Shown here: positions 2,290-60,500 of the stretch, one piece after another
Numbering within the stretch: position 1 is the stretch's first letter
Layout of the letters: the number at the start of each line of letters is the position of its first letter
Assembly (NCBI GenBank): GCA_903813345.2
Contig: CAIIXF020000005.1
Location: 6,541,375 to 6,605,374, forward strand
Length of the DNA: 64,000 bases
Direction of reading: 5' to 3'
DNA from: Owenia fusiformis
Taxonomy: Eukaryota > Annelida > Polychaeta > Sabellida > Oweniidae
Translations under genes and position numbers: made by a program
The notes under the pieces: model-generated
What the model saw: only the letters and a program-made list of their open reading frames with translations
Databases searched by the model: none
Told to the model about the DNA's origin: nothing

Positions 2290-4464
2290 TAACATTTACT
2301 TCACGTCACAAATTAAACGAATTTGTTGAGACCACAACGTCTTTGTCACGTTCTTTTTCACATACATGTATATGTATTTTTCACGTTTAAACCCCGTTTC
2401 GTCAACGTCAAAATTAACTGTTTCGACAACGTTGCAAATAAACCAATTTCGTGAGGACATAGCGTCTTTTTGTAACGTTTCCTGCACTTACAAATATTTT
2501 TTTACATTTCAATTGAAAACACGTTTCGACAACGTTGAAATTAACCGTTTGCACTACGTTGAAAATGAACCATTTTGGTCAGAAAATGACGTCTTTGTAA
2601 CGTGTGTTACAATTACAAATATTTTTCACATTCAAACCATATTTTGACAACGTTACAATTAGCCATTTTCACTACGTGGCAAATGAACCAATTTGGTGGG
2701 AAAACAAGGACTTTGTAACGTTTCCTAGACTTACAATTATCTTTCACATTTAAAACACGTTACGACAACGTCAAATTTTACTGTTTATATTACGTAGCAA
2801 ATGTAACAATTTGGTGAGAACTGCAACGTCTTTGTAACGTTTTCTACACTTACAAATATCTTTCACATTTAAAACACGTACGTTACGACAACGTCAAATT
2901 TTACCGTTTACATTACGTAGCAAATGTACCAAATTTGGTGAGAACGCAACGTCTTTGTAACGTTTTTTACACTTACAAATATCTTTCACATTTAGAACAC
3001 GTTACGACGACATCAAATTTTACCGTTTATATTACGTAGCAAATGAAACAATTTGGTGAGAAGTGCAACGTCTTTGTAACGTTTTCTACACTTACAAATA
3101 TCTTTCACATTTAAAACACGTTACGACAACGTCAAATTTTACCGTTTACATTACGTAGCAAATGTACCAAATTTGGTGAGAACACAACGTCTTTGTAACG
3201 TTTTTTACACTTACAAATATCTTTCACATTTAGAACACGTTACGACAACATCAAATTTTACCGTTTATATTACGTAGCAAATGAAACAATTTGGTGAGAA
3301 GTGCAACGTCTTTGTAACGTTTTCTACACTTACAAATATCTTTCACGTTTAAAACACGTTACGACAACGTCAAATTTTACCGTTTACATTACGTAGCAAA
3401 TGTACCAAATTTGGTGAGAACACAACGTCTTTGTAACGTTTTCTACACTTACAAATATCTTTCACATTTAAAACACGTTACGACAACGTCAAATTTTACC
3501 GTTTATATTACGTAGCAAATGAAACAATTTGGTGAGAACTGCAACGTCTTTGTAATGTTTCCTGCACTTACAAATATTTTACACATTTAAAAAACGTTAC
3601 GACAACGTTAAATTTTACCGTTTATATTACGTAGCAAATGAAACAATTTGGTGAGAAGTGCAACGTCTTTGTAACGTTTTTTACACTTACAAATATCTTT
3701 CACGTTTAAAACACGTTACGACAACGTCAAATTTTACCGTTTACATTACGTAGCAAATGTACCAAATTTGGTGAGAACACAACGTCTTTGTAACGTTTTC
3801 TACACTTACAAATATCTTTCACATTTAAAACACGTTACGACAACGTCAAATTTTACCGTTTATATTACGTAGCAAATGAAACAATTTGGTGAGAAGTGCA
3901 ACGTCTTTGTAACGTTCTCTACACTTACAAATATCTTTCACGTTTAAAATACGTTACGACAACGTCAAATTTTACCGTTTACATTACGTAGCAAATGTAC
4001 CAAATTTGGTGAGAACACAACGTCTTTGTAACGTTTTCTACACTTACAAATATCTTTCACATTTAAAACACGTTACGACAACGTCAAATTTTACCGTTTA
4101 TATTACGTAGCAAATGAAACAATTTGGTGAGAACTGCAACGTCTTTGTAATGTTTCCTGCACTTACAAATATTTTACACATTTAAAAAACGTTACGACAA
4201 CGTTAAATTTTACCGTTTATATTACGTTGCAAATGAACCAAACTGGTAAAAATTCAACGTCATTGTTACGTTTTTCACACCAGCACAAATTTCGAACTTT
4301 ACTAACACATTACTACAACGTCATTTTTTAACCATCCACCGACGTTTTGCTGAATGTCACAATTTTACGTTGCTTTGACGTTTATATAACGGAAATATAC
4401 AACGTCTCCAGTGAACTTATATACCACATATGAGTGACGTTACATGGACGTCACTGTTTGCTGG
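2290..4464. repeat. satellite array, about 120-bp monomer with higher-order structure
   Basis: About 17 head-to-tail monomers recur every 117-122 bp. Each carries CAACGTCTTTGTAACGTTTT, then ACACTTACAAATATCTTTCA, then an ACGTTACGACAACGTCAAA motif. The first monomers (about 2290-2820) are diverged and the central ones nearly identical. Two variants mostly alternate: one ends ATGTACCAAATTTGGTGAGA, the other ATGAAACAATTTGGTGAGA. A third variant, with TGTAATGTTTCCTGCAC, appears near 3541 and 4137, giving a five-monomer period of about 596 bp. The array ends in a non-repeated tail finishing GTCACTGTTTGCTGGGA, which looks like a transposon terminus, so the satellite may be the core of a mobile element. 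Confidence 0.85.
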
Positions 4465-5104
4465 GATAATATCTCGATGTCACATTCAGGAAAATATGGC
4501 TATCAACAAGTTTTGAATTCTTACAATCCTGGACGTTGTACATGTAAGCGTGCACATCTGTCAGTTCAGTTTATGTGTAAAAGTTAATCCCCTAAGCCTT
4601 AATACCTGATGCATGAAATATTATGAATGAGTTACATAATATGTACTCGTGCTCTTTAGGTAAATGTTGTGCTGTTTCACCAGATTTGACTGACATCTTT
4701 AAATAACAACAATTTGATTTGATGATCAGACAGCAACAAAACATATTAAGTGGCCAAGACAAAAGAATGTTATTATGATAGGCATTCTAGGGATTAAGGA
4801 ATGCATTCAGCTTACATAATTTGAGAAATTATTGGCATACGTAAAACCTATTTAAAACAGCATTTATCGTATTCAAAAGCGTTGAGCATCATTGATTCCC
4901 AGCCCTCTGAAGATTGAAAAATAAAAATACCTGGGTGTTAATCCATGGATTATCTTTGGAAATTAGAAATATATTTTTGGATTACATGGTGTAATCTTAA
5001 AGTAAACAAAATGTTTTAAAGTGTATTGATGTTTTTTGGATGAAAAACATAAGCGAAATTCATGAAAAAAATCGCTCGATTCATTCTACAAACAACTCGC
5101 CCTC
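4465..5104. other. AT-rich spacer, no gene seen
   Basis: No domain-bearing open frame, repeat or RNA gene was recognised between the satellite and the conserved 3' flank of copy A. Confidence 0.4.
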
Positions 5105-5508
5105 CTTTAATTAAGTGTCTGTTTATTTACTTTTACGCAGCCTAATATGATAAATCCTTAGCGATTCATTTTATACCCATAATGCCTTGCCATGGTAACA
5201 TAATTTGAAATTATTCTGTTGATATAGTCGATACTTAACATTCAATAATTGCTTATTGTTACAAAGGACAAGTTACTTATACTAAATGCCGGACTGTCGA
5301 CAGTAAGACAATAATTGCAGATTGTTACAAAAGTGTAACAACTGTTACAGATGCTGAATCTATAATGCTATATGCCAAATGTTGGAGGCTTTAACAATAA
5401 ACTACCACTTCTTGGTGATGACATAAAAACAGCCACTTAACAATGCTCCATATTTATAGTGCTAATGATTTTATTCACTTTGGATTGCATACATTGTATA
5501 TCATGTGT
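5105..5508 (-). repeat. conserved 3' flank of copy A (repeated at the other copies)
   Basis: This block downstream of copy A is repeated beside other copies (about 7692-7917, 12119-12886 with a MITE inside, 15320-15719, 20630-20951). Shared landmarks are TGCCGGACTGTCGACA, the inverted GTTACAAAAGTGTAAC and CTTCTTGGTGATGACAT. On the minus strand AATAAA lies at 5475-5470, about 35 nt past the stop codon, so the transcripts probably have a very short 3' UTR. The same kind of signal sits at 7884-7879, 12850-12845, 15686-15681 and 20918-20913. Confidence 0.75.
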
Positions 5509-7307
5509 TTAAGATGTGCAGACCACACACATCAACTCTGCCCCATCTTTGTAGTTTGGACAAGGTAAGGACCCACAAGATGCTTCCACAGCAAAAACCA
5601 AGGCACCATTCTTATCAGCCCCACTACCTGGTACTGCCTCTGGTGCTGCATCCATGCATTCAAATGTCCTTCTACTACTGTGTTTTACATAACCTGATAC
5701 AAGGTAGCCAGTATATTCGAAATGCCATGCATCTGGACATGTCTTCCAAGCTGGGATCATGATGGAGGTTGAACGAGGCACTGAACAAACAACACATGGT
5801 ACATCTGTATCATGAAGTGATTCCCTGTCACCAGGGGTAGGTGCATTGTCACCATCAAAAGGATTCGGACGTCCATCGGCTGTTCCAATCTGATATTCAG
5901 CTCCATACATTAAAGCAGAATATGTACTTTTTCCTGTGTACCTTCCCCACTGTGGGTTTGTAGGGAGGCATTGATAGTTAGAACCACCTCCTGTGTCTAC
6001 ATGACTTGAACCACCGGCTATACCTAAAATGAAGTACTGAACAGCTTGGTTGATATGATATACGGTTAGCAGAAACTAGCACACAGGCTCACTCGTCCAG
6101 ATATTGATATCAACTCGGGGATTCAATACTTTTCCAGATCCCTGTTGCAAGATTAAGGTACAGCTGGAAAATAACATTTTGGAATAAAATTGCTACACCT
6201 GCACATGTTATTTTATGGTATAAAGTAAAGTATGAAGGTATGTGTTAATTTCCTTGTCCTTTTCAGGAAATTATCGTTACATTGTCTAGTTTTAGTAAAT
6301 ATTGTAAGAGATCAATGGGAACTCCAGGATATTTCACGCTTTCTATTTTTCCAATATTCTTATGAAGTTTCCAGACAACACATGAGCTACCATTGACCTG
6401 TTTCCAGGTTTACTAAAAGTAATGATACTTTCCTGAAAAGGGAAGGAAATGCACGCCTTCATACTTAATTTTGTACCAGAAAATAACATGTGCAGGTATA
6501 GCAATTTTCCCCAAAATGTCATTTTCCAGCTGTACCTTAAGTGCACAGTCCATGCTTTTTCAACAAATCCCACGGTCAAGTGTTTTTGTTATTCATATTT
6601 TGTTTATACAAGCTGTTTTGGGCTTGCTCAAATTAAACTGCAATTGACTGTGACAAACAGGCCATGTAGTTTTTAATTTAGGAGGCACTGTTGGTTAAAT
6701 TGAACAGGTTTTGATCCTGATATTTTTTACATTAGACGTATGGTTCATTTATATACCAAAATGCCAGATTCGAAAGCTGAAGTGTTGATTTTATAACATA
6801 ATCAATATCCATTTGAATGTTTCAGGAAGGAAGGTTTTGGGTCAGAATGATTGGCTTTCTTCCAGTACATAATGGACACGTGGACCAAGAGAAAACTTTT
6901 ATTTGAAATAGAATGCAACATGAATGAACCTAAAATGGTTTGTTTCCTGAGTTTAGGCTAACCTGTATAGACAATAGCTGCTCCATCTGGACATGACGTT
7001 CTCCCCCATCTTATGTACGTAGTCTTTACAGGGGATTTCTCTGCCTTTGAATTACAACCAGCCTGAAATACACATTATCATAATAGGGATTAACTACTAT
7101 AAAAATGACAAATATGTTCTCTGAATTCACAAAACACAGTTAAGTACTGCCAAGTGTAGAGTAATTCCAATTTTTTTTATGTTTTTTTGAAAGTCTACCT
7201 ACGTGACACTGATCGCAGCATCTAGAATAGCATTCCTCACCAATGGAGTACGTAGCAAAGCAACATATAGCCAAAATAACCAAACTGCAAGTGATGCTAA
7301 CCCTCAT
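5509..7307 (-). CDS. copy A: secreted short-chain collagen C4-like protein
   Basis: The gene has three exons on the minus strand: 7307-7203, 7062-6963 and 6023-5509 (phases 0 and 1, GT-AG introns), predicting 239 residues. Residues 1-23 form a signal peptide (starts MRVSITC, hydrophobic core, ends near SIG). A Cys-rich stretch follows (E-E-C-x-x-x-C-C-x-x-C). Exon 2 encodes AGCNSKAEKS and YIRWGRTSCP. Exon 3 encodes GGGSNYQCLP, YGAEY, DVPCVVC, IPAWKTCP, FEYTGYLVS, FECMDAAPE, NGALVFAVE, CGSLPCPNY and a final ELxCVVCTS. These motifs match the domain of proteins annotated 'short-chain collagen C4-like' in molluscs. There is no Gly-X-Y collagen segment, unlike the sponge namesake. The product should be extracellular; its function is unknown to me. 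Intron 2 holds a TTAA-flanked MITE. Confidence 0.85.
6157..6536. mobile_element. 380-bp foldback MITE with TTAA target site, in intron 2 of copy A
   Basis: The left arm begins GGTACAGCTGGAAAATAACA and the right arm is its imperfect reverse complement (arms about 170 bp). TTAA flanks both ends (6153-6156 and 6537-6540). Copy C has the empty site near 13552, AGATTAAGTGCC, with a single TTAA. This confirms the borders and the duplication. TTAA targeting is typical of piggyBac-type transposition; no transposase is encoded. Confidence 0.85.
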
Positions 7308-14677: not shown

Positions 14678-15719
14678 CTTCTAACGGCTATTTGTGTTGA
14701 TGCTGAAGTTTGAGTTTTAAGTATGTTCGTCTCAGTTGGCGATAGCAGTAGAACTATTCTAATCTATGTTTTTCCAGGTTTTTATTAAAAACACCAATGT
14801 ATGGAATTTAATATTTTATGACATTAATTAAATTGAATAATAAAAGGCATTGTTGTGAATTATGATTCCAACTGCTGCGTCATCATGAGATGGCAAGGTG
14901 AGTTCGTCCATCCTTAATCTGTTATTGCTTTGGGTTGCTCTACTCTTACAAATAATTTTGAGGTGTTATTGTTAGAGTAAGGTATATCTGGTAATAAGTA
15001 AACAGTACAGTGGTAAACATTAGTGTAGTAAACAATACAGTAGAGGCAGCAATGCAGGCAAGCAACTCTAATAACAATTCTCAAACCTCCAATAAATTGT
15101 GTGGTGAAATTTATTTCCAATTCCATCTGAGATCTTGCCTGAATATTTGGTCATAAACCCTGTGTTCATGCAGCCCCGTGTAAATGTAACATAATGTTAC
15201 ACTTTCTGTTGTCCCGAAACCGCACACAGAATGCTATGTAGAGTCATACGCTACTGTTGTATTATATTATACATGTATAGTAGTCATTAATACAAAATGA
15301 AATTATAAAATTTAAATAATCGTCTGTTTATTTACTTATACATGTTATACGTAGCCTTATCCTTAGCGATTCGACTTATTCCCATAATGCCTTGCCATAG
15401 TAACATAATTTGAAATTATTCTGTTGATATAGTCGATACTTACATGTAACTTTCAATAATTGCTAATTGTTAAAAAGGCCAAGTTACCTATACTAAATGC
15501 CGGAGTGTCGACAGTAAGACAATAATTGCAGATTGTTACAAAAGTGTAACAACTGTTACAGATGCTGAATCTCTTATGCTATATGTTAAACGTTGGAGGC
15601 TGTAACACTATGTCACAACTTTTTGGTGATGATATAAAAACAGGCATTGAACAATGCTCCATATTTATAGTGATAATGATTTTATTCACTTTGGATTGCA
15701 TACATTGTATATCATATGT
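14678..15719. other. spacer between C and D
   Basis: The spacer holds the upstream flank of copy C (shared with A and partly with B to about 15240), then the conserved 3' flank of copy D from about 15320. AATAAA for copy D is at 15686-15681. No additional gene was seen. Confidence 0.6.
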
Positions 15720-16743
15720 TTAAGATGTGCAGACCACACACGTCAACTCTGCCCCATTTTTGTAGTTTGGACAGGGTAAGGACCCACAAGATGCTTCCAC
15801 AGCATAAAACAAGGCACCATTCCTATTAGCCCCACTACCTGGTACTGCCTCTGGTGCTGCATCCATGCATTCAAATGTCTTTCTACCGCTGTGTTTCGCA
15901 TGCGCTGATACAAGGTAACCAGTGTATTCGAAATGCCATGCATCTGGACATGTCTTCCAAGCTGGGATCATGATAGACGTTGAACGAGGCACTGAACACA
16001 CAACACATGGTACATCTGTATCATGAAGTGATTCTCTGTCTCCAGGGGTAGGTGCATTGTCACCATCAAAAGGATTCGAACGTCCCATGACTGTTGAAAC
16101 CTCATATTCAGCTCCATACAATAAACCAGAATATGTACTTTTTGCACTGGTGTACCTTCCCCACTGTGGGTTTGTAGGAAGGCATTGATAGTTAGAACCA
16201 CCTCCTGTTTCTGTGTAATGGGAGCCCCCAGCTATACCTAAAATGGATTGATGAACAACTTGTTTAACATGTTTTATATAACAAGAAACTGGCATAGGCC
16301 ACATAGGCATTTTTGGTTATGAAGCAGTCACATTAGACTGTGTAGGTTCACCTTTCGCCACCGTGTGAATACTTTGGGGCAGACTGCGGGTCACGGCACA
16401 CGGTACACGGTGGGCAAAACAAATAGTTTTATAGCAAGCTTATTATTTACAAGTATCCCACAGAATTGATGTGGGATCGATGGATTGATGGATTTGATTC
16501 AAAGGAGGAGGGAAGTTAGCGCAACAGATTTTGGACAGTCATATGTTTGATTTTGGCCATTTCCTGGGGATTTAAACAGGTGCATATGTTAGGCGAATGC
16601 ATTACCTCCAGGAAAATCACTTCTAGAGATGATAAAATAATTTCGACTTTGAGACAGGGTAGATGCAAACAACCCACCCACATGTTTTTTCTGAAATGTT
16701 TTCCTGATTTTCAACCCCTTCCATCCCTGCTTTTTTGATTTTT

Positions 16744-19446: not shown

Positions 19447-20485
19447 CAGGGCGTTCAGTAAGTAAAGCTAATTTTGCTCTCAAACTTTTATTTCTTGTCT
19501 ATCATCGTTCAAATTTTCAGTGGAGAAGCATCAGAAAAAATGATCAAGATATGATGAATAATAGCAAAATAGTGGTTGTCATAGTAACGCGAATACGGGT
19601 TCTGCGGAGCAATTTTATAAGTTCACAGCATAGTAGATTTTGTTAACGTTAGTTTCTGTCCTGTCTATATTTCAACCATAGTTCTGTGGCTACTCCACAT
19701 TTATACTTTCAAGTTAGCATTCTAGATAATGTACCCATCCTAGGCTGATATTGGTTAGTTCTGAGAGTTCCCTTACAGTTATACTGCGGTCTTCATCTAA
19801 CAATTACCTCAAATGATTCAAGTTAGCCTCTTTGGTTAGAAGTTTTGGCCTCCCTGACCTTGGCTCATCACTTGTTGTTTTTCTCCCCTTTTGGAATTTC
19901 TGATACCATTTGTAGATTGTGTACTTAGGCACACTGTCCCCATATGCTTTTTGGATATCCCTAATGGTATCCTGCTTGGATTTCCCTAGCAACACATTGT
20001 ATCTGATGCTACTTCTCAATTGTTGTTTTATTTCATTGTTCATTTTGCTTCCATTGGCAATCCTGGCAGCCATGATTTTGATGATGTCATGGAGCAGTGT
20101 CTGATGGATCATTCTGGATCATTCCATCTGTTGAATCACCTGTCTGTGATGTCATAGTCTACTGTTGCCATGGTATCATATTTGTGTATGTTGTTGTTAT
20201 GTTTGTCGTGACTTTCAGCCATAGCAAACAAAGACATATGCAGCATTAATCTTAATCAATTTCATTGCATTATAACATTTTTATTAAAGTAAGAAATTGC
20301 TCCGCAGAACCCGTATTCACGTTACTATGACAACCATTGTTTTGCTATTATTATTCATCATATCTTATTTAATTTTTCATGGTAGTTAGAAAAATGTCAA
20401 ATGCTTCTTCACTGAAAATTTGAAAGATAAATGACAAAAAATAAAAGTTTGAGAGCAAAATTAGCTTTACTTACTGAACGCCCTG
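19447..20485 (-). mobile_element. mariner-family element, deletion derivative with long inverted ends
   Basis: The ends are CAGGGCGTTCAGTAAGTAAA in inverted orientation, extending with mismatches for about 170 bp. TA flanks both sides (19445-19446 and 20486-20487), the hallmark duplication of Tc1/mariner elements. At 1039 bp it is shorter than typical full-length mariners, about 1.3 kb. Inside is a minus-strand fragment (20112-19804) encoding only the N-terminal DNA-binding part of the transposase. No catalytic D,D34D segment was found, so it is non-autonomous. It lies in the spacer between D and E. Confidence 0.88.
19804..20112 (-). pseudogene. mariner transposase N-terminal fragment
   Basis: The 102-codon frame contains a helix-turn-helix region: SIRYNVLLGKSKQDT, then YTIYKWYQKFQKGRK, and the SGRPKLL linker typical of mariner transposases between the two DNA-binding motifs. 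It then terminates. The catalytic domain, which would need about 240 more residues, is missing, consistent with internal deletion. Only DNA binding could remain. Confidence 0.8.
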
Positions 20486-20951
20486 TATCATAGCTGTGAA
20501 ATGTGTGTAAGAAATATTATGACAACTTTGATAGAAACTGGGGTTATTTACCTGAAACAATCAAAAATATGAATTCTATATTATTATGGACCATATGATA
20601 TTATGGAATAACATCTTGTAATAACATCTTGCCATGGTGACACAATTTGAAATTATTCCGTTGATATAGTCGATACTTAACATTTAATAATTGCTAATTA
20701 TAACAAAAGATCAAGTAACCTATGCTAAATGCCGGACTGTCGACAGCAAGACAATAATTGCAGATTGTTATAAAAGTGTAACAACTGTTACAGATGCTGA
20801 ATCTATAATGCTATATGCCAAATGTTGGAGGCTTTAACAATATGTCACCACTTCTTGGTGATGACATAAAAACAGGCATTGAACAATGCTCCATATTTAT
20901 AGTGCTAATGATTTTATTCACTTTGGGCAGAATACATTGTATATCATGTGT

Positions 20952-22395
20952 TTAAGATGTGCAGACCACACACGTCAACTCTGCCCCATCTTTGTAGTTT
21001 GGACAAGGTAAGGACCCACAAGATGCTTCCACAGCATAAAACATAGCACCATTTTTATCAGCCCCACTACCCGGTACTGCCTCTGGTGCTGCATCCATGC
21101 ATTCAAATGTCCTTCTACCGCTGTGTTTTACATACTCTGATACAAGGTAGCCAGTGTATTCAAAATGCCATGCATTTGGACATGTCTTCCAAGCTGGGAT
21201 CATGATAGACGTTGAACGAGGTACTGAACACACAACACACGGTACATCTCTATTTTGAAGTGATTCTCTGTCACCAGGGGTAGGTGCATTGTCACCATCA
21301 AAAGGGTTCGAATGTCCACTGGCTGTTGCAACCTGATATTCAGCTCCATACATTAAAGCAGAATATGTACTTTTTGCACTTGTGTACCTTCCCCACTGTG
21401 GGTTTGTAGGAAGGCATTGATAGTTAGAACCACCTCCTGACTCTACATGACTGGAACCTCCGGCTATACCTAAAATGAAGTATTGAACACAATTGCTTGA
21501 TATACGGTAAGCAGAAACTAGCATAGAGGCATAGCGAGGATCCAAAACTTGGCGAGAATCTCAATACGTTGAGGTAAAAAATTGGGTCAGAATGATAGGC
21601 TTTCTTTCAGTACATAATGGACATGTGGACCAAGAGAAAACTTTTATTTGAAATCAAATGCAACGTAAATGAACCTAAATTGGTTTGTTTCCTGAGTTCA
21701 AGCTAACCTGCATAGACAATAGCTGCTCCATCTGGGCAGGATGTTCTCCCCCATCTTATGTACGTAGTCTTTACATGGGATTTCTCTGCCTTTGAGTTAC
21801 AACCAGCCTGAAATATATATCAACATGATAGGGACCAGGCTGATCTTCAAAAATCCTTATAACCTTTAACTAAAATAAATCTTTCATCCTTTAGTCAACT
21901 AATACAAAAATGTTAGTTCTCTCAATTTACAAAACTCAGTCATGTACTGCCAAATGTGGAGTAATTCGAAGTTTTGTATGTTTAATTGAAAGTCTACCTC
22001 CCTGACACTGATTACTGCCGGTACCTTACTGCCAAGTGTGGAATAATTCGAAGTTTTATATGTTTAATTGAAAGTCTACCTACCTTTCACTGGTTAGTGT
22101 CAAATGTGGAGTAATTCGAAGTTTTGCATTTTTAATTGAAAGTCTACCTACCTGACACTGATTACTGCCAAGTGTGGAGTAATTCGAAGTTTTGTATGTT
22201 TAATTGAAAGTCTACCTACCTGACACTGATTACTGCCAAATGTGGAGTAATTCGAAGTTTTGTATGTTTAATTGAAAGTCTACCTACGTGACACTGATTG
22301 CAGCACCTAGAACAGCATTCCTCACCAATGGAGTACGTAGCAAAGCAACATATTATAGCGACAATAACCAAACTGCAAGTGATGCTAACCCTCAT
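20952..22395 (-). CDS. copy E: secreted short-chain collagen C4-like protein
   Basis: Exons are 22395-22288, 21807-21708 and 21469-20952, with GT-AG borders, predicting 241 residues. Exon 1 has one extra codon relative to A and C (VIVAIICC in the signal core), as in copy B. The mature start is E-E-C-C-S-R-C-C-N-Q-C. Exon 2 has EKSHVK where the others have EKSPVK, and ends VYA instead of VYT. Exon 3 keeps every conserved Cys and ends ELTCVVCTS. AATAAA is at 20918-20913. No lesion was seen. Intron 1 carries four extra copies of the donor-containing minisatellite. Predicted secreted protein of unknown function. Confidence 0.87.
22002..22296 (-). repeat. 68-bp minisatellite duplicating the exon-1 splice donor (copy E)
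   Basis: Units begin near 22002, 22086, 22152, 22220 and 22288 (the last is the true exon border). The final three spacings are 66-68 bp. Most units repeat CAGTGTCAG|GTAGGTAGAC-like sequence, so intron 1 presents several near-copies of the real donor. One unit near 22086 is degenerate, and the first spacing is stretched by an internal insertion. Confidence 0.82.
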
Positions 22396-26859: not shown

Positions 26860-27461
26860 TCAGGCATTTAGATAGTTGTTATGGTGATTGTTTCCTAAAC
26901 GGGGCAGTGACGACAGATCCGACCGTCCTGAGTTAATTTCACGATAGTCTGATGCTATAGAGTTTGTGTGTCTGTAGTCCCCAGGGTTTGACTGCAAATC
27001 GGGGTAATCTGATATTGACCCTGGGGCGAGATATACACCAGCATGGCTAGGGTGGGCTACCTCAGGGTAGTCCCTATATTGTCTGTCACTCCCGTACTGT
27101 ACTTCAGATACACTGTACGGCACTCCATCATATTGCTCACTATATGGAGACTCACTGTATGGAGTTTCCGATCGTTTTTGAGAATAGCCATGCGGAGATT
27201 GAGATTTCAAAGGCCTAAATTGGTCCTTGTCTAGGTGATTAGCACTAATGTTGTGCTTAGGTGTGCGAGTAACTGTTACTGTTAGTTTCTGACTGGAACT
27301 GGCCATACATGTATGTTTTCTGTGTAGTATATAAACTGTTGTTATGACGAAGAAGATAACACAGGCTGATGGGATAGCTATGACGAGCGTGAGGGTCGTG
27401 GGATTAAAGCCACTGTGTGAGGAGGAACTTCGCGCATTCTTCTCTTTCAGGAGTTGAGAAT
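26860..27461 (-). CDS. FGFRL1: FGFRL1 last exon: transmembrane segment and tyrosine-rich tail
   Basis: The acceptor TTTTCAG lies at 27462 and the codon split with the previous exon gives Asp. It encodes a short juxtamembrane stretch, a hydrophobic helix of about 23 residues, a basic stop-transfer (HRKHT) and a cytoplasmic tail. There is no kinase domain. The tail has 13 tyrosines, many in short PYSE, QYGS, QYRDY and DYPE contexts, and ends NHHNNYLNA. The His-rich end typical of vertebrate FGFRL1 is reduced to one HH pair. The stop codon is at 26862-26860. Confidence 0.92.
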
Positions 27462-30400
27462 CTGAAAACATTAAAATGGGAAAATCGTGTAAAATTCTGG
27501 TCGCATACAAAGCAAAGTGTATACAGCACATATATAATTTATATATCTACTTGTATCAATTATACATGCAAGTAGTGTTCTTGATTATTCTGTGCTGTTA
27601 ACCTCCTGAATCCCAGGCTCTAAAATCGGTTGAAACCAGAGATTTTTTCATTTTTGCCACCTTTTGACATTATACTACATACCTAATACAACTTCAGATG
27701 CTCAACTTGATAAAATTAGACGACAGATATTTCTACACATTTTAAAACAATTTTTGTGTAAATTGGATGAAAATTGTTCAAATAAGAGCAATTTTAGTGA
27801 AAAATTTTGTGATGGATTTTCTCGTCATTCTGGGTTTCAAGGTCATTTCAGAGGTGACGAGAAATCTCGTCACTCCAGGTAGTCAAGGGGTTAATTAAGG
27901 TTACGATATTTCCTGGCATAAATTACTCATTTATACTTCATGATGCTAACTCCATATTTACTTAAAATGTAAATGAACATTAAGAAATAGGCAAGCTGAT
28001 AACATACAAGTACCTGATATATTGACAGTGAGAAAAGCTTGTCGGAAGCTATAACCAAGTGTGTTAGCACCCAGACATATGTACATCCCCGCATCTGCCA
28101 TCCTCGCGTTTGTGATGACGAGTTTATTGAGGAAAGTGCCATCTTTTCTGGACCAGACATCGCCCGTTTTGAGGACAGCAAACAGTTGATTGTCAACCTT
28201 GATTGTGTTATTCAGTTGTGTGGTAGATTTGGTGCTCACTTGTTTTAGCCACTAAAAGATAAAAGTAACTATATAAATGGATCTGTTTTCAAGAATTATC
28301 CTGTATTCTCTTACTGAACATAGAAACTGGAGCATAAACTAGATTCATTATACTATAGGTTGTAGGAAGTAATTGTTCATTTATGCAATTACAACTAATC
28401 ACATTTTTAAAAAATAATCTATATATTGCAAATTGATAATTGTGCCTGAAAGATTGTACAACTATGATACAATTGGCTTAGTTATATAATACATGGACTG
28501 TATTGATGCATGTCAATAAGGGAGAAATGTCATGCATCATGCATTGCAGCTCCCTCCCCCCTCTGAATTAGAAATAACTGAATTTTGCTGAGACATCTCA
28601 GAGTAGCATGTGTACCTTTATGGTTGGCTCCGAGTCACTACGTACTCTGCATTGAAACTGTGCCATGCCTCCATATTTGACCGTCATGTTAACAGGATGG
28701 GGAGGAATTAGTTCAGGTTTCATTTTTATTTTTTCTGCAAATACATGAATTAATTATTAGTTGGATTTGGTTGAAGGGGGTTTCATCCAATGTATCGAAT
28801 GGATTATGGAAGGGTCTATGGAATATAAGGTGTCTGTGGGAATTCTGCGGAATCTGAAATGCTGTCAAAATTTGGAGTAATCATTCTCTACATGTACAAT
28901 GTACATCTATCTATATTATGGCAATAGAGGGAGCATTCGTTCATTCTGAAATCAAAGAGCTACAAAACAACAAGACTGCAGCCCAAGAAATAGAGACATC
29001 TATTTTCAAATTCCATTCCAGATCATGTTTGTCTAAATTAGAAACATGCATTTAGTTTCAGACTGCATTTATAGATGTCACATGGGAAGTACCTGCACCA
29101 GGGGAGTAATTCGGCTCTTCACTTGACAGTGGAATGATATAGACTCTCCATATAGAACTGTAGAGTTCATGGGTCTTGTACTTAATATTACAGGCTTTGT
29201 GATATGGCTTTCTAAAATATAATAGAAATATACACAACAAAAATATAACAAATATTATTAGCTTAAAACCTTGTGGTATTGTTTTTCTAGATATAAACTG
29301 TTTTTTAACTAAAAAAAACAAAAAGTTATCCACTGAAACATGGTCTTTTATATACTATATTTTCGAACTAAATCAAACTATGTAAAACAAATTATTCTAC
29401 TGTAACTGAAGTTTTGATAAAATTGAGGGAATCAATAACACTATTTCAAAAGTGCATATCCAATCTTAATCAAAGTTTAAATAAAAGTAATATTTTGTGT
29501 GAACTTGAAATCAAACATACCTATAACTTCTACTGTATATGTATAGTTGATCATGCCAGCTCTGTTATATACCCTGCATGTGTATTTCCCAGAGTCCTCG
29601 TTACGGAGATCGCTCAAATGTAGCGTCCATTTCTGTGTATGAACATGATCATTGCTATTTCGCTCCTCAACGATCTGTTTGTTGTCTTTGTACCAAATGA
29701 TCTCTGGCTTAGGTTTTCCTGTAGCTTTACAACGAAGACGTGCGGAACTGCCGACTGGGCGCTGAATATTTCGACGTCGATTTTTGGCGGGTGCGGTGAA
29801 TCTGGGTTTGTCTGAAATAATATTAAGGTGGTACATGTGAATAAAACATAAGAACAGAACAGAAATACTCGAAATGAAAAAAAAGACTGAAAATCATAAA
29901 TGCTGTATTTTGGAAATTGTATAATGAGAATGGTATCGTATAAGAATGATATTGTATAAGAATAGTACTATGATAAAGAGAGTTCTATTGGTATCGACTA
30001 TAATGAGAATGGTATTGTATAGGAATGATATTGGTATAATGAGAGTTTTATTGGTATTGACTGTAATGGGAATGGTATTGTATAAGATTGGTATTGGTAT
30101 AATGAGAGTTCTATTGGTATTGACTATATGGGAATGGTATTGTATAAGAATGGTATTGGTATAATGAGGGTTCTATTGGTATTGACTGTTATGGGAATGG
30201 TATTTCTTCCTGTTATATCAGAGAAATACACTAAGAGTCAAATATGTAAATGAAGTAAGGGAGTCGTATAGTCTTATCTTTTACATGTTTCTGAGAAAAT
30301 GAATAAAAGAGAAGAGTGTTATCAACTTACTTCCTTCGTTATCAATCACACTCGGGAAGAAATTCGACTCCAAATTTGTCAACGTGTCATTTTCATCTGA

Positions 30401-45400: not shown

Positions 45401-48298
45401 CCTATGAGCCCCCATAATGAAATGGCCTACTTGTGAGTAATGTGATTAAAGGTAGTCATAACAGAGGAATCCCTAGTAAATTACCAGATCTGTCCAGGTA
45501 TGAGTTAATCCCCACATCTAATGAAATGATCAAAGGGCTAACACTGAGTTACACCAAATAGAATGTACAAGTAAATTCATTACATAGATTGCATTTACAT
45601 TCCATGTATTGGGTCTATATTTCAGCTATAAAAACAACAACATTTTCACAAATCCTCTCACCTCTCTAGAACACTGGTCTGGAGCTGGTTGTTGATATCT
45701 TTGAATCCTAATTCATCCTCTCACGATTATATAGGATGTCATTAAGATCTTAATGGCCTCAAATGAAACCTTCATGGTGTTTAAAAGTTGATTGTTAAAT
45801 ACGTCTCAGGCTCTCAGCTATTCATTGGCAGAAAAATTTCATTGGCAGAAAAATTTCATAATACTGTACAGTGGCTTTCTTACAACATGGTTAGATAAAA
45901 GCTAGATCAAAAAATAAAGGGGATGCAGGGATTAGTGACAGTAGAAAAAAAGGGTCAATACATGGTCCTACAATTGTGGGGGGGGGGGGTAAAGGGGCAG
46001 GGAGGGGGGGGTGAATACAGACTTCTAGACCAGTGGTATTTCCTAGCAGAGATATACTAATGATGAAGCATAATAGTAACATCAACATAGCTGTTACTAC
46101 AAAGATGATACCTCACATAGGGCCATTTCAACGATCTTCACATTGAAAACAACATCCTCTTTATACCTGTAGCTACCTATGAAAGTTAACTGGTCACCTA
46201 TCTGGCACAGAAACGCTTTGATCTTTTTTCTTAGTTGGAAAATAAGTTGACTTTAGCATCAAACTGTTGGTGGTTACAAAAACTTACTTTAAATATTAGT
46301 TACCTGAGCAGCCGTTGAAGCCGAATGACACCATGTTTCCCATTCAGTTTTTTTTCAAAAAGTTATGATCACTTTTCTGCTCTAAGAACAATATTCCTCA
46401 AAGGAAGTATGTATATGTATAAGTGTTTCATTAAATTAAGCCTTATATGCCAAGTCATTTTCCCAATTACTATTCATTTTCTAATTAGGCATCACTTACT
46501 AAGAGTTATGTAATAATAATGGGTATGCCTTTGTTCTTGGCTGGTAAGATACTTCCACTAAACTCCTTTTATCAACATAGTATACAACCATCAAACTCAT
46601 TTTATTAACCAGTGAGCTCCACTTTCAGATAACAATTCACAAAAGCGTGGACCACCAGTATATTGTTTGAAGTTGCTTAATTAATTTGTCTGTAAATAAT
46701 TTATGCTATATCATAATTAATTTTGATGTTAACAACTAATTTTTTGTTCGCCTTCACTTTAATGATGTGAAAACTGAAATTCATATGAACATTAATGCCT
46801 CACTGTCAGCAATGGTTTATGAGAACAAAAAATGAAATCTATGGTTATCGAAAGAATCCCTTTAGAGACAAAGTTGTCATGATGACCCAGTGAAAACAGC
46901 ATAATATAAACATGCATTATGTAAATAAGTAAATATTTTTAATCTATTTCTGGAAAATCAACAAATAAAGTATGGCTGTTATGACTGAGATAACTGTCCT
47001 CAATTTCACATCATCTTGTTTCACACCATCTCATACCATGTTGTTTATGCCATCAGGCCTGTAGCCGGCTTTTGCCAAAGGAGGGTTCACTTTTCAAAAT
47101 ATTCCACAATTTGACACTTTGGACCGAATTCACTTTAAACAGTTTCTTAAGTAGCCTACGGTTGGGGAGGGGGGGGGCTAGATTAAGATATTTTTATTGT
47201 TACCTTGATAATCTTATGCTATACTATTGTCTTCATTTGAAATCACATTCTCTACAATTTGAGACCTCGAAATAGATTCTAATTACATATTCTAAATTTT
47301 TTAATAGTTACTCAAACGTCACCCAAAATGTTACATTCCTATTCTGAACTGAATCTGAAATTTAATAAACATTAAGATAACATTTCTACTCAAATTAGAC
47401 CTACCATGAGATAGTTCATCCAATGTTGGAGAGAGTATCAAAAAGTTTATCTAAAGATGTTGTTTATGTGGTAAACATACAAAAAAGGGACAAGTCAGTG
47501 TGGCTATTATGTCTAGATTGTGATTTATCATACGCTTATCTGGATATCCAGTTAGTGTTGACATACCATGGTCACATATGTCAAAATGAATCACATATGT
47601 CATACTGTATCACATATATCACACCCTAATCACTGTCAACTCAACATAGTGCAGATCTGACCTTATAGCTAGGGGATTCCGATTGACATATCTGATACTT
47701 ATCAGATCTTCCTAACAGATGTAATGTCTTAACTCTTGTACCATGCCCCTGTCTTGCCCCCTCCCGTCTTTCTTCCCCCTTCTTTCGATCTCTGTAATTA
47801 GGTAAAGATATAAGATGGCTCCTCCTGACTAAAAGAAGACATGTTTAAACATGGGCTTTCAGTTGAAAGCCCATGGTTTAAACGACCACATTCGCTCTCT
47901 TGTCTGCCCTTCTAGATTCATTTCTGGTCCGTGCACCATAAAGGACAATGTGTAAAATCCGTCAATGCACTAAAACTTCATCTGGAATATATTTTGAATA
48001 TATATCGAATACTTACTGGTTACATGGAGTATGAACTGGACATCGATACTGCCGAAGCCATTGATAGCTTTACAGATGTAAACACCAGCATCTTCCATCA
48101 TGACATCCTTGATACGGAGGCTGTATCCATCCTTACTGGTCTTGAATCTCTCCCATCCATGGTCAATGCTCTCACCATCTTTGGTCCACCTTATCAAGAG
48201 ATCTGGGTTGCCCTCAACGGGGCATGTTAGACGTGTTGGCTCTCCCAGTTTTACCAATTTGTTCTCCTGAATCCGATTCTCTGTCAAAGTTGGGGGTC
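26860..48298 (-). CDS. FGFRL1: FGF receptor-like 1 (kinase-less three-Ig receptor)
   Basis: Exons in transcription order: Ig1 48298-48017; alternative first exon 33971-33776; linker 30396-30331; Ig2 29811-29521; alternative Ig3 first halves 29211-29093 (a) and 28734-28616 (b); Ig3 second half 28251-28014; membrane/tail 27461-26860. All borders are GT-AG and phases chain correctly. Strings shared with vertebrate FGFRL1 include [46 protein letters not shown] and [20 protein letters not shown] hydrophobic segment (LTLVIAIP...VYIL) precedes a roughly 150-residue tail with no kinase, as expected of FGFRL1. The family binds FGFs and heparin at the cell surface and acts in adhesion and as a decoy or modulator. 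The signal-peptide exon for the Ig1 form was not found in this window. Confidence 0.92.
27602..27890. mobile_element. TTAA-flanked MITE-like element in FGFRL1 intron
   Basis: TTAA lies at 27598-27601 and 27891-27894. The ends are weakly inverted (CCTCCTGAATCCC against CCCCTTGACTACC). The inside contains GAGAAATCTCGTCACTCC and the related TTTCTCGTCATTC. This resembles piggyBac-type non-autonomous repeats. It sits in the intron before the last exon. Confidence 0.5.
28014..28251 (-). CDS. FGFRL1: FGFRL1 exon: second half of Ig domain 3
   Basis: Phase 0 start (TTTTAG|TGG) and phase 1 end (ATCAG|GTACTT), 238 bp. It encodes [40 protein letters not shown] and [12 protein letters not shown]. The Cys in MYICLG pairs with the Cys supplied by whichever first-half exon is used. 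No second version of this exon was seen, unlike the IIIb/IIIc arrangement of vertebrate FGFR1-3. Confidence 0.93.
28616..28734 (-). CDS. FGFRL1: FGFRL1 alternative exon b: first half of Ig domain 3
   Basis: 119 bp, acceptor TTTGCAG and donor AAG|GTACAC, entering in phase 1 and leaving in phase 0. Forty residues including the split codon. It encodes [18 protein letters not shown] and then [14 protein letters not shown]. The Ig Cys (FQC) and an N-glycosylation sequon (NMT) are present. RVRSD..P.I is the version closest to vertebrate FGFRL1. Confidence 0.9.
29093..29211 (-). CDS. FGFRL1: FGFRL1 alternative exon a: first half of Ig domain 3
   Basis: 119 bp, acceptor ATTTTAG and donor CAG|GTACTT, entering in phase 1 and leaving in phase 0, exactly as exon b. 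It encodes [18 protein letters not shown] and then [14 protein letters not shown]. By hand count it matches exon b at 14 of 40 residues. Those kept include the Ig Cys, the N-x-T/S sequon and the TV-x-YG turn, while the linker and the stretch after Cys differ. An overlapping longer frame (29058-29333) is out of phase and not the product. Confidence 0.85.
29521..29811 (-). CDS. FGFRL1: FGFRL1 exon: Ig domain 2
   Basis: 291 bp, phase 1 to phase 1. It encodes [21 protein letters not shown], then [28 protein letters not shown] and [14 protein letters not shown]. The basic KNRRRNIQR stretch matches the position of the heparin-binding surface of FGFR-family Ig2. Both Ig cysteines and the core Trp are present. 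The exon ends in TVEVI with the first base of the next codon. Confidence 0.94.
29920..30200. repeat. minisatellite of about 60 bp in FGFRL1 intron
   Basis: About four units repeat GGAATGGTATTGTATAAGA, TTGGTATAATGAGAGTT and CTATTGGTATTGACT motifs between the Ig2 and linker exons. The open frame running through it is a by-product. Confidence 0.8.
30331..30396 (-). CDS. FGFRL1: FGFRL1 exon: acidic linker between Ig1 and Ig2
   Basis: 66 bp, phase 1 to phase 1 (TTTCAG|ATGAAA ... GGAA|GTAAGT). It encodes [20 protein letters not shown], an acidic and Ser/Asn-containing stretch at the place of the Ig1-Ig2 linker in vertebrate FGFRL1. It can be joined in frame from either the Ig1 exon or the internal signal-peptide exon. 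Confidence 0.85.
30397..33775. other. FGFRL1 intron
   Basis: AT-rich, with short GAATTCATGAAGC direct repeats near 32940. No further exon with Ig or other known motifs was seen on either strand. Confidence 0.5.
33776..33971 (-). CDS. FGFRL1: FGFRL1 alternative first exon encoding a signal peptide
   Basis: The ATG is at 33971 with an in-frame stop shortly upstream. A second in-frame Met (codon 26, at 33896-33894) has A at -3 and directly starts a typical signal peptide, [18 protein letters not shown], with likely cleavage after AWA. The exon ends CCCAG|GTTAGT in phase 1, the same phase as the Ig1 exon, so it joins the linker exon in frame. It lies 3' of the Ig1 exon, so a transcript starting here lacks Ig1. 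The joined product would be 503 residues: signal, acidic linker (66-87), Ig2 (88-184), Ig3 (185-303), membrane segment (about 327-349), tail. Confidence 0.75.
33972..37489. other. FGFRL1 intron / upstream of the internal first exon
   Basis: If the exon at 33776-33971 is a first exon, its promoter should lie just above 33971. I see no clear TATA box. A short TTCAGTTCAGTTCAGTG triplication lies at about 33991-34007. Elsewhere no exon, RNA gene or mobile element was recognised. Confidence 0.4.
37490..37800. repeat. degenerate tandem repeat (ACTATAGTACCAAGCATATT)
   Basis: Ten or more units of about 23-30 bp share TATACTATAGTACCAAG with variation, in the large FGFRL1 intron. Confidence 0.75.
38570..38665. 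repeat. diverged relative of the collagen-C4-like 3' flank block
   Basis: GTTGGAGACTACAACAATATG followed by TCACCACT matches the GTTGGAGGCTTTAACAATATG and TCACCACT motif of the conserved 3' flank near 20824-20850. A second fragment lies at about 58620-58665. The block may therefore derive from a dispersed repeat. Confidence 0.45.
38955..39034. repeat. 21-bp minisatellite
   Basis: Four units of TTCATGTGTCTTATTTAATGA with few changes. Confidence 0.85.
39035..41131. other. FGFRL1 intron, no feature except G-run
   Basis: Nothing recognised apart from a poly-G run at about 40266-40280. No Ig-like or other exon seen. Confidence 0.4.
41132..41310. mobile_element. Tc1/mariner- or pogo-like MITE remnant
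   Basis: It begins CAGTGAACCCTTTAAAGTG after TA and ends CAGGTTTTACTG, with repeated GTGGAACACCTC motifs inside. Inverted CAGTRAAMCC-type ends and internal GGAACACCTC repeats are common in pogo/Tigger-type short elements. The right TA is mutated, so the assignment is tentative. Confidence 0.45.
41311..47053. other. FGFRL1 intron, unassigned
   Basis: AT-rich with poly-G runs near 45978. No supported exon, RNA gene or element. Open frames here (for example 44603-44860) lack recognisable domains and splice context. Confidence 0.4.
47054..47180. mobile_element. partial copy of CAGGCCCGTAGCCAG MITE family
   Basis: It starts CAGGCCTGTAGCCGGC and includes GGAGGGTTCACTTTTCAAAA, matching the left half of the complete element at 54457-54657. 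The right end is degenerate, near a GGGGAGGGGGGGGGC run. Confidence 0.55.
48017..48298 (-). CDS. FGFRL1: FGFRL1 exon: Ig domain 1
   Basis: 282 bp, phase 1 to phase 1 (TTCCAG|GACCCC ... ACCA|GTAAGT). It encodes [35 protein letters not shown], a DAGVYICKA motif and [20 protein letters not shown] and [14 protein letters not shown] are diagnostic matches to vertebrate FGFRL1 Ig1. It is separated from the linker exon by about 17.6 kb. Because it is a symmetric 1-1 exon, it can be skipped or bypassed without a frameshift. Confidence 0.94.
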
Positions 48299-57581: not shown

Positions 57582-60500
57582 AGTACAAAGAAACATCTGA
57601 GGTCAGTAGCAAGAGACTCCTAGAAAAACCTCATGATGAAAATGTCATCTCTGTCAGTCTCAAGTAACCAGTAAATGATATCAATACAGTATTATATATA
57701 GGAGGATGTTATGAGTATCAGAATAGAATAGACATATTTGCCAAAAGAAGTCTCCCTTGAGAGCAGTGTCATTTCTATAAAGAGAAGTCTCATCTCCCTT
57801 AGGAGCAGTTTCGTCTCCATATGAAGAAGTCTCATCTGCCAAAAATGAAGGTCACTTGATTTCATTGTAATGCCAAATAAACCACTCAATAAAATCATAA
57901 AATCCTCCCCAGAGAGAACCTATCATAATTCTTCATGTCTACTGATTTGCTCATGTTTCATCGTAACAGCTCCCATTTTCTCCTGTGGGAGATGTGATGC
58001 AGACACAATTTAGAATTGGGATTAGCAGTCTAATTATTGATGAGAGCTTATGTATGAGACAGTAATATGAGAATAATAGAACCAATATCGTCAAGAACTT
58101 CTTGAGTGTCGTTATATATCAACTGTAAGGCCGTATATCCCCCAATGCGTTTGTCATAATTCATAGCGATTCTCTTATTGATTCGCGTGATGACAACTTG
58201 ATCCCCACTTAAAAAAACATCATTATTTGATCTGCTGGTCTATTATCTTCCGCTTTATAATATTCTATGAGTCATGCGGGATTTACTCAATGAGGCTGAC
58301 AAGGGAACATCGCCTTCCAATAACTGTGTGGTAGCTAGTTGAAAACATGAATAGGGGGATGTCACCTAACTGCGGACATTGGGTGAACAATTTTGTATGT
58401 TCTCTAATATGATCATTTGTGATTTTTCATTACAGAGGGTACTGTACCAGGCTTTGTAAAATTGGAGATTTAAAAAAGATCATGATATAGAGAGGTTAAA
58501 TTAGAAACAAAAGAACAAAATACCACCAACTACGTTATAATCACGAAAGTATAACCATTTGATACAGTTGCTACGACCGAATGTAAAACAGCCAGTGCCT
58601 AACATTGATCACAAAAATGATGGCCATAACAATATGTCACCACTTCTTGTTAATGACACACAAATGTTTCTCCAAATGAATTTGAAATATGTATCTAATC
58701 GAACAAAGTGAATAAATTCAATTTTTGCTTCTTCGAAAAATGAACTCATATAATTTGATTATGACGCATGATTTGGCATAATACTTGATGTCATCACATG
58801 ACGGCAGCCCCTACACTGGACGATAAATTAATGAAAATGTCCCACTCAATATTGGAAATTACCACATAAGAAAATAATTTAATCATTAAGTCTTAATTGA
58901 AGACAGGGACCTTTGACAGTACATCTGTACGCAACACAACTACATCATCACTCACAATGGAGGGTATATTATTCTTTAATTAAATTTATTTAGGAATTGC
59001 AATAATGAATTCATTTTGTGAGTGGTTGGGTTGAATGGGATGATGATCCCTAATGCAAGCAGCCAATGAGCTTATTCAAAGAGAGTTGGAATATCCCATC
59101 GACTATAATAAAATCTGAAGAGACACTAAGATAAAAATACAGAGACAGATTGTGAGGCTTTTTACTTTATTGTGAATTTTTGGCATTGATATAACATTAT
59201 ACATTAAGGCTGAAATGGCACAATTGCGAAATGAACACATGTAACATTACAATTAGCTATCATTGATAACCTACATATAGAGGAATAAATAATTTCACTT
59301 CATTGGTCAAATTACATCAATTTGTTTCCGTAGTTCATAAACATTAATCAAATTGCTTTCCATCCTCAAGAAAAAACTTCTACAAACTTTAAAACTCTAC
59401 AACACAGCTTTCCAATTTGCATCAAAATCTATCAGAGATGACCTTAGACTGATCTTTGATATATTTACAGATATTCTAGCTGCACTATCTCACCCAATGA
59501 TTACTTTATGACCCCTATTGGGGCAATTACACCCATAAAGTGATAAAATGCTGTAACAGTGTATAGTTATCAAGCCATGCATCTGTGTTTAGTGAGATAT
59601 CATGATGACTTTATTACCCTTATTGCTACCAATAAAATGCTCCAATGCTCCTGGGAAGGCTTCAGTTTAAAGATAGTGAAGGAAATAAAATTATTGAATT
59701 GTGATAGCTTCATCATAAAATACTCAACTTTGAAGCGATATTTTCTGTATATGAGTACATATAGTAAACATATCAGATTTATTTGATTATACTGAGATTG
59801 TTAATATGCATTCTGATTGATCAGTCCCTCTTTATCTAAAGCTTCAATGCTCTCTTCAAGAGAGACTACAGCTATAGGCTTTGGATCTCACAATATCTAT
59901 TGTAGTATTTCCTTCATCTAATCTAGGATTCACACCTCTTTATAGACTTTCTGATTTTCTTATGATGTTGGGACTCTACTACCAGTTATGATTAAATATA
60001 AGTTATAATTCAAAGAGAAGTGATATATTTTTGTTTTTATACTTTTATGTTTTGTTTACCTTTATAGACACATATAAAAAACATCGAATGACCAACAAGT
60101 CAGAGATACCGACATGATCAAGAGTCAATAAAAGAAAATTTACAAATCTACAACTGCATTGAATTCTTAGAGTACACCCATTGGCAATTCAATCACAGCT
60201 CATTGCATTGAGAGATCAAATCATTTCATATGGGATTAGATGGTTCATTGATAAATTCAGCATCCAACAATTTATTTCACATTAGAGCTATCAAGAGGCC
60301 ACATCCAGAATCAGAGTTGTTAGTCTCCACCAGATCTATCCAATAGATTGTACATACCCTGAGCTAAACAGTAAGTACTTCGCCCTCTGATTAGAACTAA
60401 TGATTTGATAGTTTAGTGTTCAACAAATCAGAGGGTACCGTACAGCTATGCTTAGAAGTTTACATGTATCACAAGCCCCCCCCCCTCCCCCCAGGTACAA

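Follow-up and report, generated by a model that had tools for sequence, protein, structure and literature searches.

Two alternative exons, probably mutually exclusive, for the first half of the third Ig domain in an FGFRL1-type gene of Owenia fusiformis

INTRODUCTION

FGFRL1, the kinase-less member of the FGF receptor family, is usually taken for a decoy or adhesion receptor with a single form, and its third Ig domain (Ig3) takes part in cell fusion. In the vertebrate kinase receptors FGFR1-3, the mutually exclusive exons IIIb and IIIc exchange the second half of Ig3. This swap changes FGF affinity (PMC5703972), and in FGFR2 it is under Fox/UGCAUG control (PMC2880598); in the mouse gene, Fox2 works via UGCAUG in the intron that separates the two exclusive exons (PMC2880598, PMC3585155). 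Splicing of the exclusive exons 5A and 5B of Caenorhabditis elegans egl-15 is likewise under Rbfox proteins (ASD-1/FOX-1) acting via UGCAUG (PMC3585155, PMC2880598). Mutually exclusive IIIa exons, which encode the first half of Ig3, are described for insect FGFR in section 12 and the Fig. 7 legend of PMC5703972; oyster-specific exons are noted in the same section, and the Ig3 region is presented in that paper as a hotspot for new splicing. Outside the FGF receptor family, exclusive exons of the arthropod Dscam clusters swap half an Ig domain (PMC4244043).

Here we analyse a stretch of 64,000 nt of the annelid Owenia fusiformis (hereafter the window), whose minus strand holds an FGFRL1-type gene with two 119-nt exons, a and b. 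In our reading, to which we give a probability of roughly 80%, a and b are tandem duplicates that would be spliced in a mutually exclusive manner, so that the receptor would have the Ig2-Ig3 linker and first Ig3 half of either a or b. Like the insect IIIa exons, they are alternatives for the first half of Ig3 in a gene of the FGF receptor family; the insect exons belong to a kinase receptor and are called insect-specific, whereas here the gene is the kinase-less FGFRL1 and the 119-nt exon ends before the core Trp. Like IIIb/IIIc, they are alternative Ig3 exons, but the exchange falls in the first half and the linker instead of the second half. The egl-15 exons, also exclusive exons of the FGFR family, alter another protein region than a and b, and egl-15 encodes a kinase receptor, unlike the FGFRL1-type gene. 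Dscam clusters offer many alternatives each, compared with two copies per gene here. Because insect FGFR and, as described below, the FGFR of this genome have first-half pairs, exclusive first-half Ig3 exons are already known as a kind, and what is new is their occurrence in FGFRL1. The sequence-only reading that preceded this work knew of no such description for FGFRL1, and we also found none in the open-licence literature, which was covered mostly by titles and the beginnings of abstracts. A first-half exon swap in FGFRL1 is not mentioned in the portions of PMC2754479 and PMC2806250 that were covered, and 'fgfrl' does not occur in the main text of PMC5703972.

RESULTS

Layout and identity of the FGFRL1-type gene

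The gene encodes three Ig domains, with exons in the order Ig1, linker, Ig2 and Ig3. The Ig1 exon (48017-48298, minus strand as all exons of this gene; 282 nt, leaving in phase 1) coincides with an Ig match at C5:6589395-6589640 on the contig that contains the window. It is followed by the Ig1-Ig2 linker exon (30331-30396, 66 nt, phase 1 to 1), the Ig2 exon (29521-29811, 291 nt, leaving in phase 1), exons a and b, the exon for the second half of Ig3 (28014-28251, 238 nt, phase 0 to 1) and the last coding exon (26860-27461), which encodes a transmembrane segment, identified by eye, and a kinase-less tail ending in TGA. No signal-peptide exon was found in a crude scan upstream of Ig1, which gave one weak candidate at 59186.

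FGFR1-4 chains cover Ig2-Ig3 fully in one stretch, with FGFR3 chain 1ry7_B at E 5.3e-35 and 112 bits; titin, Robo2 and Dscam outrank 1ry7_B only via summed weaker stretches, of which the best single ones reach 36-42 bits. No Pfam family was met in the tail at E 0.001. By eye, histidines are only scattered there, with one HH near the end, and the histidine-rich, zinc-binding region reported for deuterostome-type FGFRL1 (PMC2806250) was not seen. We judge that a histidine-rich tail is not a defining feature of FGFRL1 outside deuterostomes. The exon borders that separate domains lie in phase 1, and Ig3 is split over two exons, as it is in Lottia and Capitella FGFRL1 (PMC2754479, section 7), the comparison being one of intron presence; in human, sea urchin and Nematostella, Ig3 of FGFRL1 lies on one exon (PMC2754479). 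Sections 7 and 8 of that paper do not mention a duplicate Ig3 exon in Lottia or Capitella, and 'splic' is absent from its main text. Moreover, the contig also carries an FGFR gene at a distance of ~155 kb (kinase exons at C5:6410744-6412717, last FGFRL1 exon at about C5:6568234), and linkage of FGFRL1 with FGFR is known in human, sea urchin and Drosophila (PMC2754479, section 8). Given the FGFR-type Ig2-Ig3, the kinase-less tail, the phase-1 borders, the split Ig3 and the nearby FGFR, FGFRL1 appears to be the best name for the gene. No other strong match, as an assembly duplicate of the locus would give, was present among the matches listed.

Exons a and b are locked by reading frame

Exon a (29093-29211) and exon b (28616-28734) were described in the sequence-only reading as two 119-nt exons that run from phase 1 to phase 0, keep the Ig cysteine and an N-x-T/S sequon, and leave the frame intact only when one of them is used. 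All of this held on re-examination, and both exons have AG/GT borders. Read on from the Ig2 exon, either exon alone continues openly into 28251-28014, inclusion of both leads to a TAA at the third codon past the a/b junction, and skipping of both to a TAA after 14 codons. Each exon starts with a Glu, directly followed by the counterpart of the Arg-Ser-Pro hinge in the alignment with FGFR2 (chain 1iil, which has Arg instead of that Pro), and ends one residue before the core Trp of Ig3. GC content is 0.41 in both, compared with 0.22-0.36 in the flanking introns. The acceptor of exon a is T-rich, that of exon b has the weakest pyrimidine tract among the seven acceptors, and position +5 of the donor is not G for a, b or the constitutive exon downstream.

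Anatomy alone proves little, because open 119-nt AG..GT slots in this phase are common: the minus strand of the 64-kb window has 33 of them, two of which are a and b, and the plus strand has 16. No further copies of the 119-nt exon were found in the window, only weak matches. The exon for the second half of Ig3 was found by tblastn in one copy, 28251-28014, together with weak matches to Ig1 and noise; thus tblastn gave no sign of an exchange of the IIIb/IIIc type in this gene.

Homology and coding constraint of a and b

Exons a and b share 14 of 40 residues with a BLOSUM62 score of 70, a value reached by none of 20,000 shuffles of a, and they find each other by tblastn at E 7e-6 to 1e-5 when the window and three loci are searched. 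Against the whole genome of 498 Mb the signal is weaker: with b as query, a appears at E 0.16, while two places elsewhere score better and one equally well; with a as query, b appears at E 0.25 and one place elsewhere scores better. Since Ig domains look alike, the case for duplication is built on the combination of similarity with tandem arrangement, identical length and identical phases. The better-scoring places elsewhere would also fit an origin of exon a by shuffling from another Ig gene instead of tandem copying of b, but we regard this as most improbable, considering that a and b are adjacent with the same length and the same phases, and that a is nearer to human FGFRL1 (20/43) and to b (17/43) than to the FGFR exons of its own genome (12-13/43).

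Nucleotide identity between a and b at codon positions 1, 2 and 3 is 19/39, 21/40 and 12/40, respectively, and positions 1 and 2 together differ from position 3 with a Fisher P of 0.025. When neutral decay of b to the observed nucleotide identity was simulated, the frame stayed open in 347 of 4,000 runs and at least 14 identical residues were kept in none. Because protein similarity persists despite a third-position identity of 30%, both exons have probably been under coding constraint, as far as a single pair of 40 codons in one species can tell. The pattern argues that a stayed coding over most of its history, which would still be compatible with a recent death.

Such a death is one alternative: exon a would be a duplicate, dying or already dead, that splicing no longer includes, and b alone would be in use. 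Over 43 columns, b matches human FGFRL1 at 24 positions and a at only 20, and a is without residues common to b, FGFR2 and FGFR3, for example the SD before the C strand. In comparison with FGFR2, b also leads with 16/43 against 13/43, and with FGFR3 the two are about equal (b 17/43, BLOSUM 85; a 16/43, BLOSUM 91). However, exon a has an open frame, intact splice borders, the cysteine, the sequon and a T-rich acceptor, and neutral decay did not reproduce its protein similarity to b, so we consider a dead exon a quite unlikely. The two exons match each other at 17/43, so that each is nearer to human FGFRL1 than to the other, and b is as near to human FGFR3 as to a. From this and from the weak genome-wide E values, the duplication would seem to be old, or exon a fast-evolving. 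We regard a and b as a real and probably functional pair.

A parallel exon pair in FGFR of the same genome

A human FGFR kinase stretch had 53 genome matches at E 1e-10 or better, among them four pieces at C5:6410744-6412717 that are 51-71% identical to the query. The Ig exons shortly before them (locus L001, C5:6396001-6406000) were joined to the kinase gene by adjacency, and they are arranged as an acidic exon, the Ig2 pair, two exons for the first half of Ig3 (IIIa1 and IIIa2), a second-half exon (L001:9010-9151) and a transmembrane exon. IIIa1 (L001:7194-7378, 185 nt) and IIIa2 (L001:8013-8209, 197 nt) both run from phase 1 to phase 0 and are 44% identical over 45 residues. Either one alone leaves the frame open, and both or neither lead to stops; the codon-position test (positions 1 and 2 versus 3) gave a Fisher P of 0.018. 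IIIa2 is without the Ig cysteine, yet Ig3 scores 48.3 bits against I-set with IIIa2 and 47.4 bits with IIIa1.

The 3' borders of the duplicated exons differ in position between FGFR and FGFRL1, and a and b match either FGFR exon of this genome at 10-13/43, fewer than they match each other. For these two reasons the duplications in FGFR and FGFRL1 look like separate events, although 43 columns make this conclusion a tentative one.

Exons of Ig2-like domains in FGFR lie at L001:2665-2813 with 3249-3375 and at 4381-4526 (or -4535) with 4821-4947. By eye, the domain before the acidic exon is so close to a copy of Ig2 that Ig1 might have been replaced by, or duplicated from, that domain. A long tandem array of ~41-base units fills L001:1-2660, directly before the FGFR Ig exons. 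The best-scoring kinase, on contig C9, was considered as another FGFR and rejected, with no FGFR-type Ig seen by eye and the Ig2-Ig3 query unmatched in that locus (L003, C9:20348500-20353500). On its minus strand, this locus has a single open frame of >1,100 codons for a receptor tyrosine kinase whose kinase part resembles that of FGFR.

TGCATG motifs next to the duplicated exons

The Rbfox-type motif TGCATG was first spotted by eye in FGFRL1, and FGFR served as a separate check afterwards. In FGFRL1, one copy (29050-29045, minus strand) starts at intron base 43 past exon a, and two (28543-28538 and 28536-28531, minus strand) start at intron bases 73 and 80 past exon b. Five introns that flank the duplicated exons, three from FGFRL1 and two from FGFR with 2,465 nt in all, contain 10 sense-strand copies where 0.89-1.02 are expected, and among the hexamers present TGCATG ranks lowest in Poisson P under two backgrounds. 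Its reverse complement occurs once in these introns, and across 2,000 dinucleotide shuffles the copy number averaged 1.26 and peaked at 5. One FGFR copy, at L001:7532, lies within a sequence that occurs twice in the analysed DNA, and 9 of the 10 remain when it is excluded. The 2,246-nt FGFR intron before IIIa1, which was omitted from the five-intron count, holds four more (0.74 expected).

Counted separately, the FGFR introns have 7 copies against 0.54-0.60 expected (rank 1 of 989 hexamers), and the FGFRL1 introns have 3 against 0.39-0.43 (P 0.007-0.010; rank 16 of 739 observed hexamers). At least three copies were seen in 50 of 793 overlapping 1,400-nt segments of the analysed DNA, those of FGFRL1 and FGFR included, and the highest counts, six and five, fall in the FGFR region. 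Judged on motif counts, the FGFR cluster is striking, and the FGFRL1 cluster is only suggestive. A search for an Rbfox-like RRM gave one genome match, 78% identical over 36 residues, which is confined to the RRM's second half and has one TAG inside. The layout of TGCATG, past a as well as past b, gives no prediction of which exon Rbfox would favour.

DISCUSSION

We propose that each pre-mRNA of the FGFRL1-type gene would keep one of a and b, and that transcripts with both or neither, which run into an early stop, would be removed by nonsense-mediated decay. Several ways of enforcing exclusion were considered. Steric blocking between a and b is ruled out, as the 358 nt between them are too long, and U2/U12 incompatibility is unsupported, the examined borders being GT-AG. 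Docking RNA structures were also sought: the region has six inverted pairings, the longest of them AT-rich and imperfect, and none is convincing. A 12-nt hairpin overlaps the two TGCATG motifs past b, and the RNA fold past b is no better than that of shuffled sequence (z -0.34, with 65 of 200 shuffles as good). The choice between a and b would be made by splice-site competition under regulation, probably by an Rbfox-family protein and partners, with the Rbfox protein on the UGCAUG past a and past b, by analogy with mouse FGFR2 and worm egl-15.

Regulation of a and b need not be strictly exclusive. Joint inclusion or joint skipping might instead serve to lower FGFRL1 or to yield a truncated soluble ectodomain, which would end after Ig2 or early in Ig3; the stops lie suitably, soon past Ig2 when both exons are skipped and just past the a part when both are included, and one comparison reported joining reads in 18 clusters of frame-incompatible exclusive exons (PMC5740500). 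This explanation would not in itself account for the full-length, Ig-compatible frame that either exon gives on its own, and we hold it to be rather unlikely compared with mutually exclusive use.

Under mutually exclusive use, the hinge and one face or edge of Ig3 would be altered and the Ig core kept. The sequence-only reading was right in placing the swap in the first half of Ig3 of an FGFRL1-type gene, as a frame-locked pair, but the case for the change of ligand choice that it implied is weak, since FGF8 is bound by mammalian FGFRL1 chiefly via Ig2, and the linker and Ig3 contribute little (PMC7600612). For this reason the exchange would more likely tune adhesion, dimerisation or contact with a co-receptor or partner than FGF ligand, and an altered FGF choice by the a/b swap is a guess. 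If true, a built-in isoform switch would change the view of FGFRL1 as a single-form receptor.

Since FGFR in the same genome has an analogous pair, receptor FGFR and kinase-less FGFRL1 may be switched together, with UGCAUG/Rbfox as a candidate shared regulator of both pairs. The more specific idea, that one Rbfox-driven switch flips the first half of Ig3 in FGFR (IIIa1/IIIa2) and in FGFRL1 (a/b) in the same cells, is tentative, and we think it possible but doubtful. If it holds, two separately duplicated exon pairs would be under one regulator, and receptor and decoy isoforms would be matched by tissue. The parallel pairs in FGFR and FGFRL1 would also extend the view of Ig3 as a splicing hotspot to the kinase-less member of the family.

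Other features of the window

A fragment of a Mos1-type transposase HTH (PF17906, E 1.3e-10) lies at 19804-20118 on the minus strand. Three near-identical translated stretches, at 5458-5550, 15669-15761 and 20901-20993, represent a local repeated gene or repeat family; the last of them overlaps a Cys-rich open frame without Pfam match, which extends over 20952-21560 on the minus strand.
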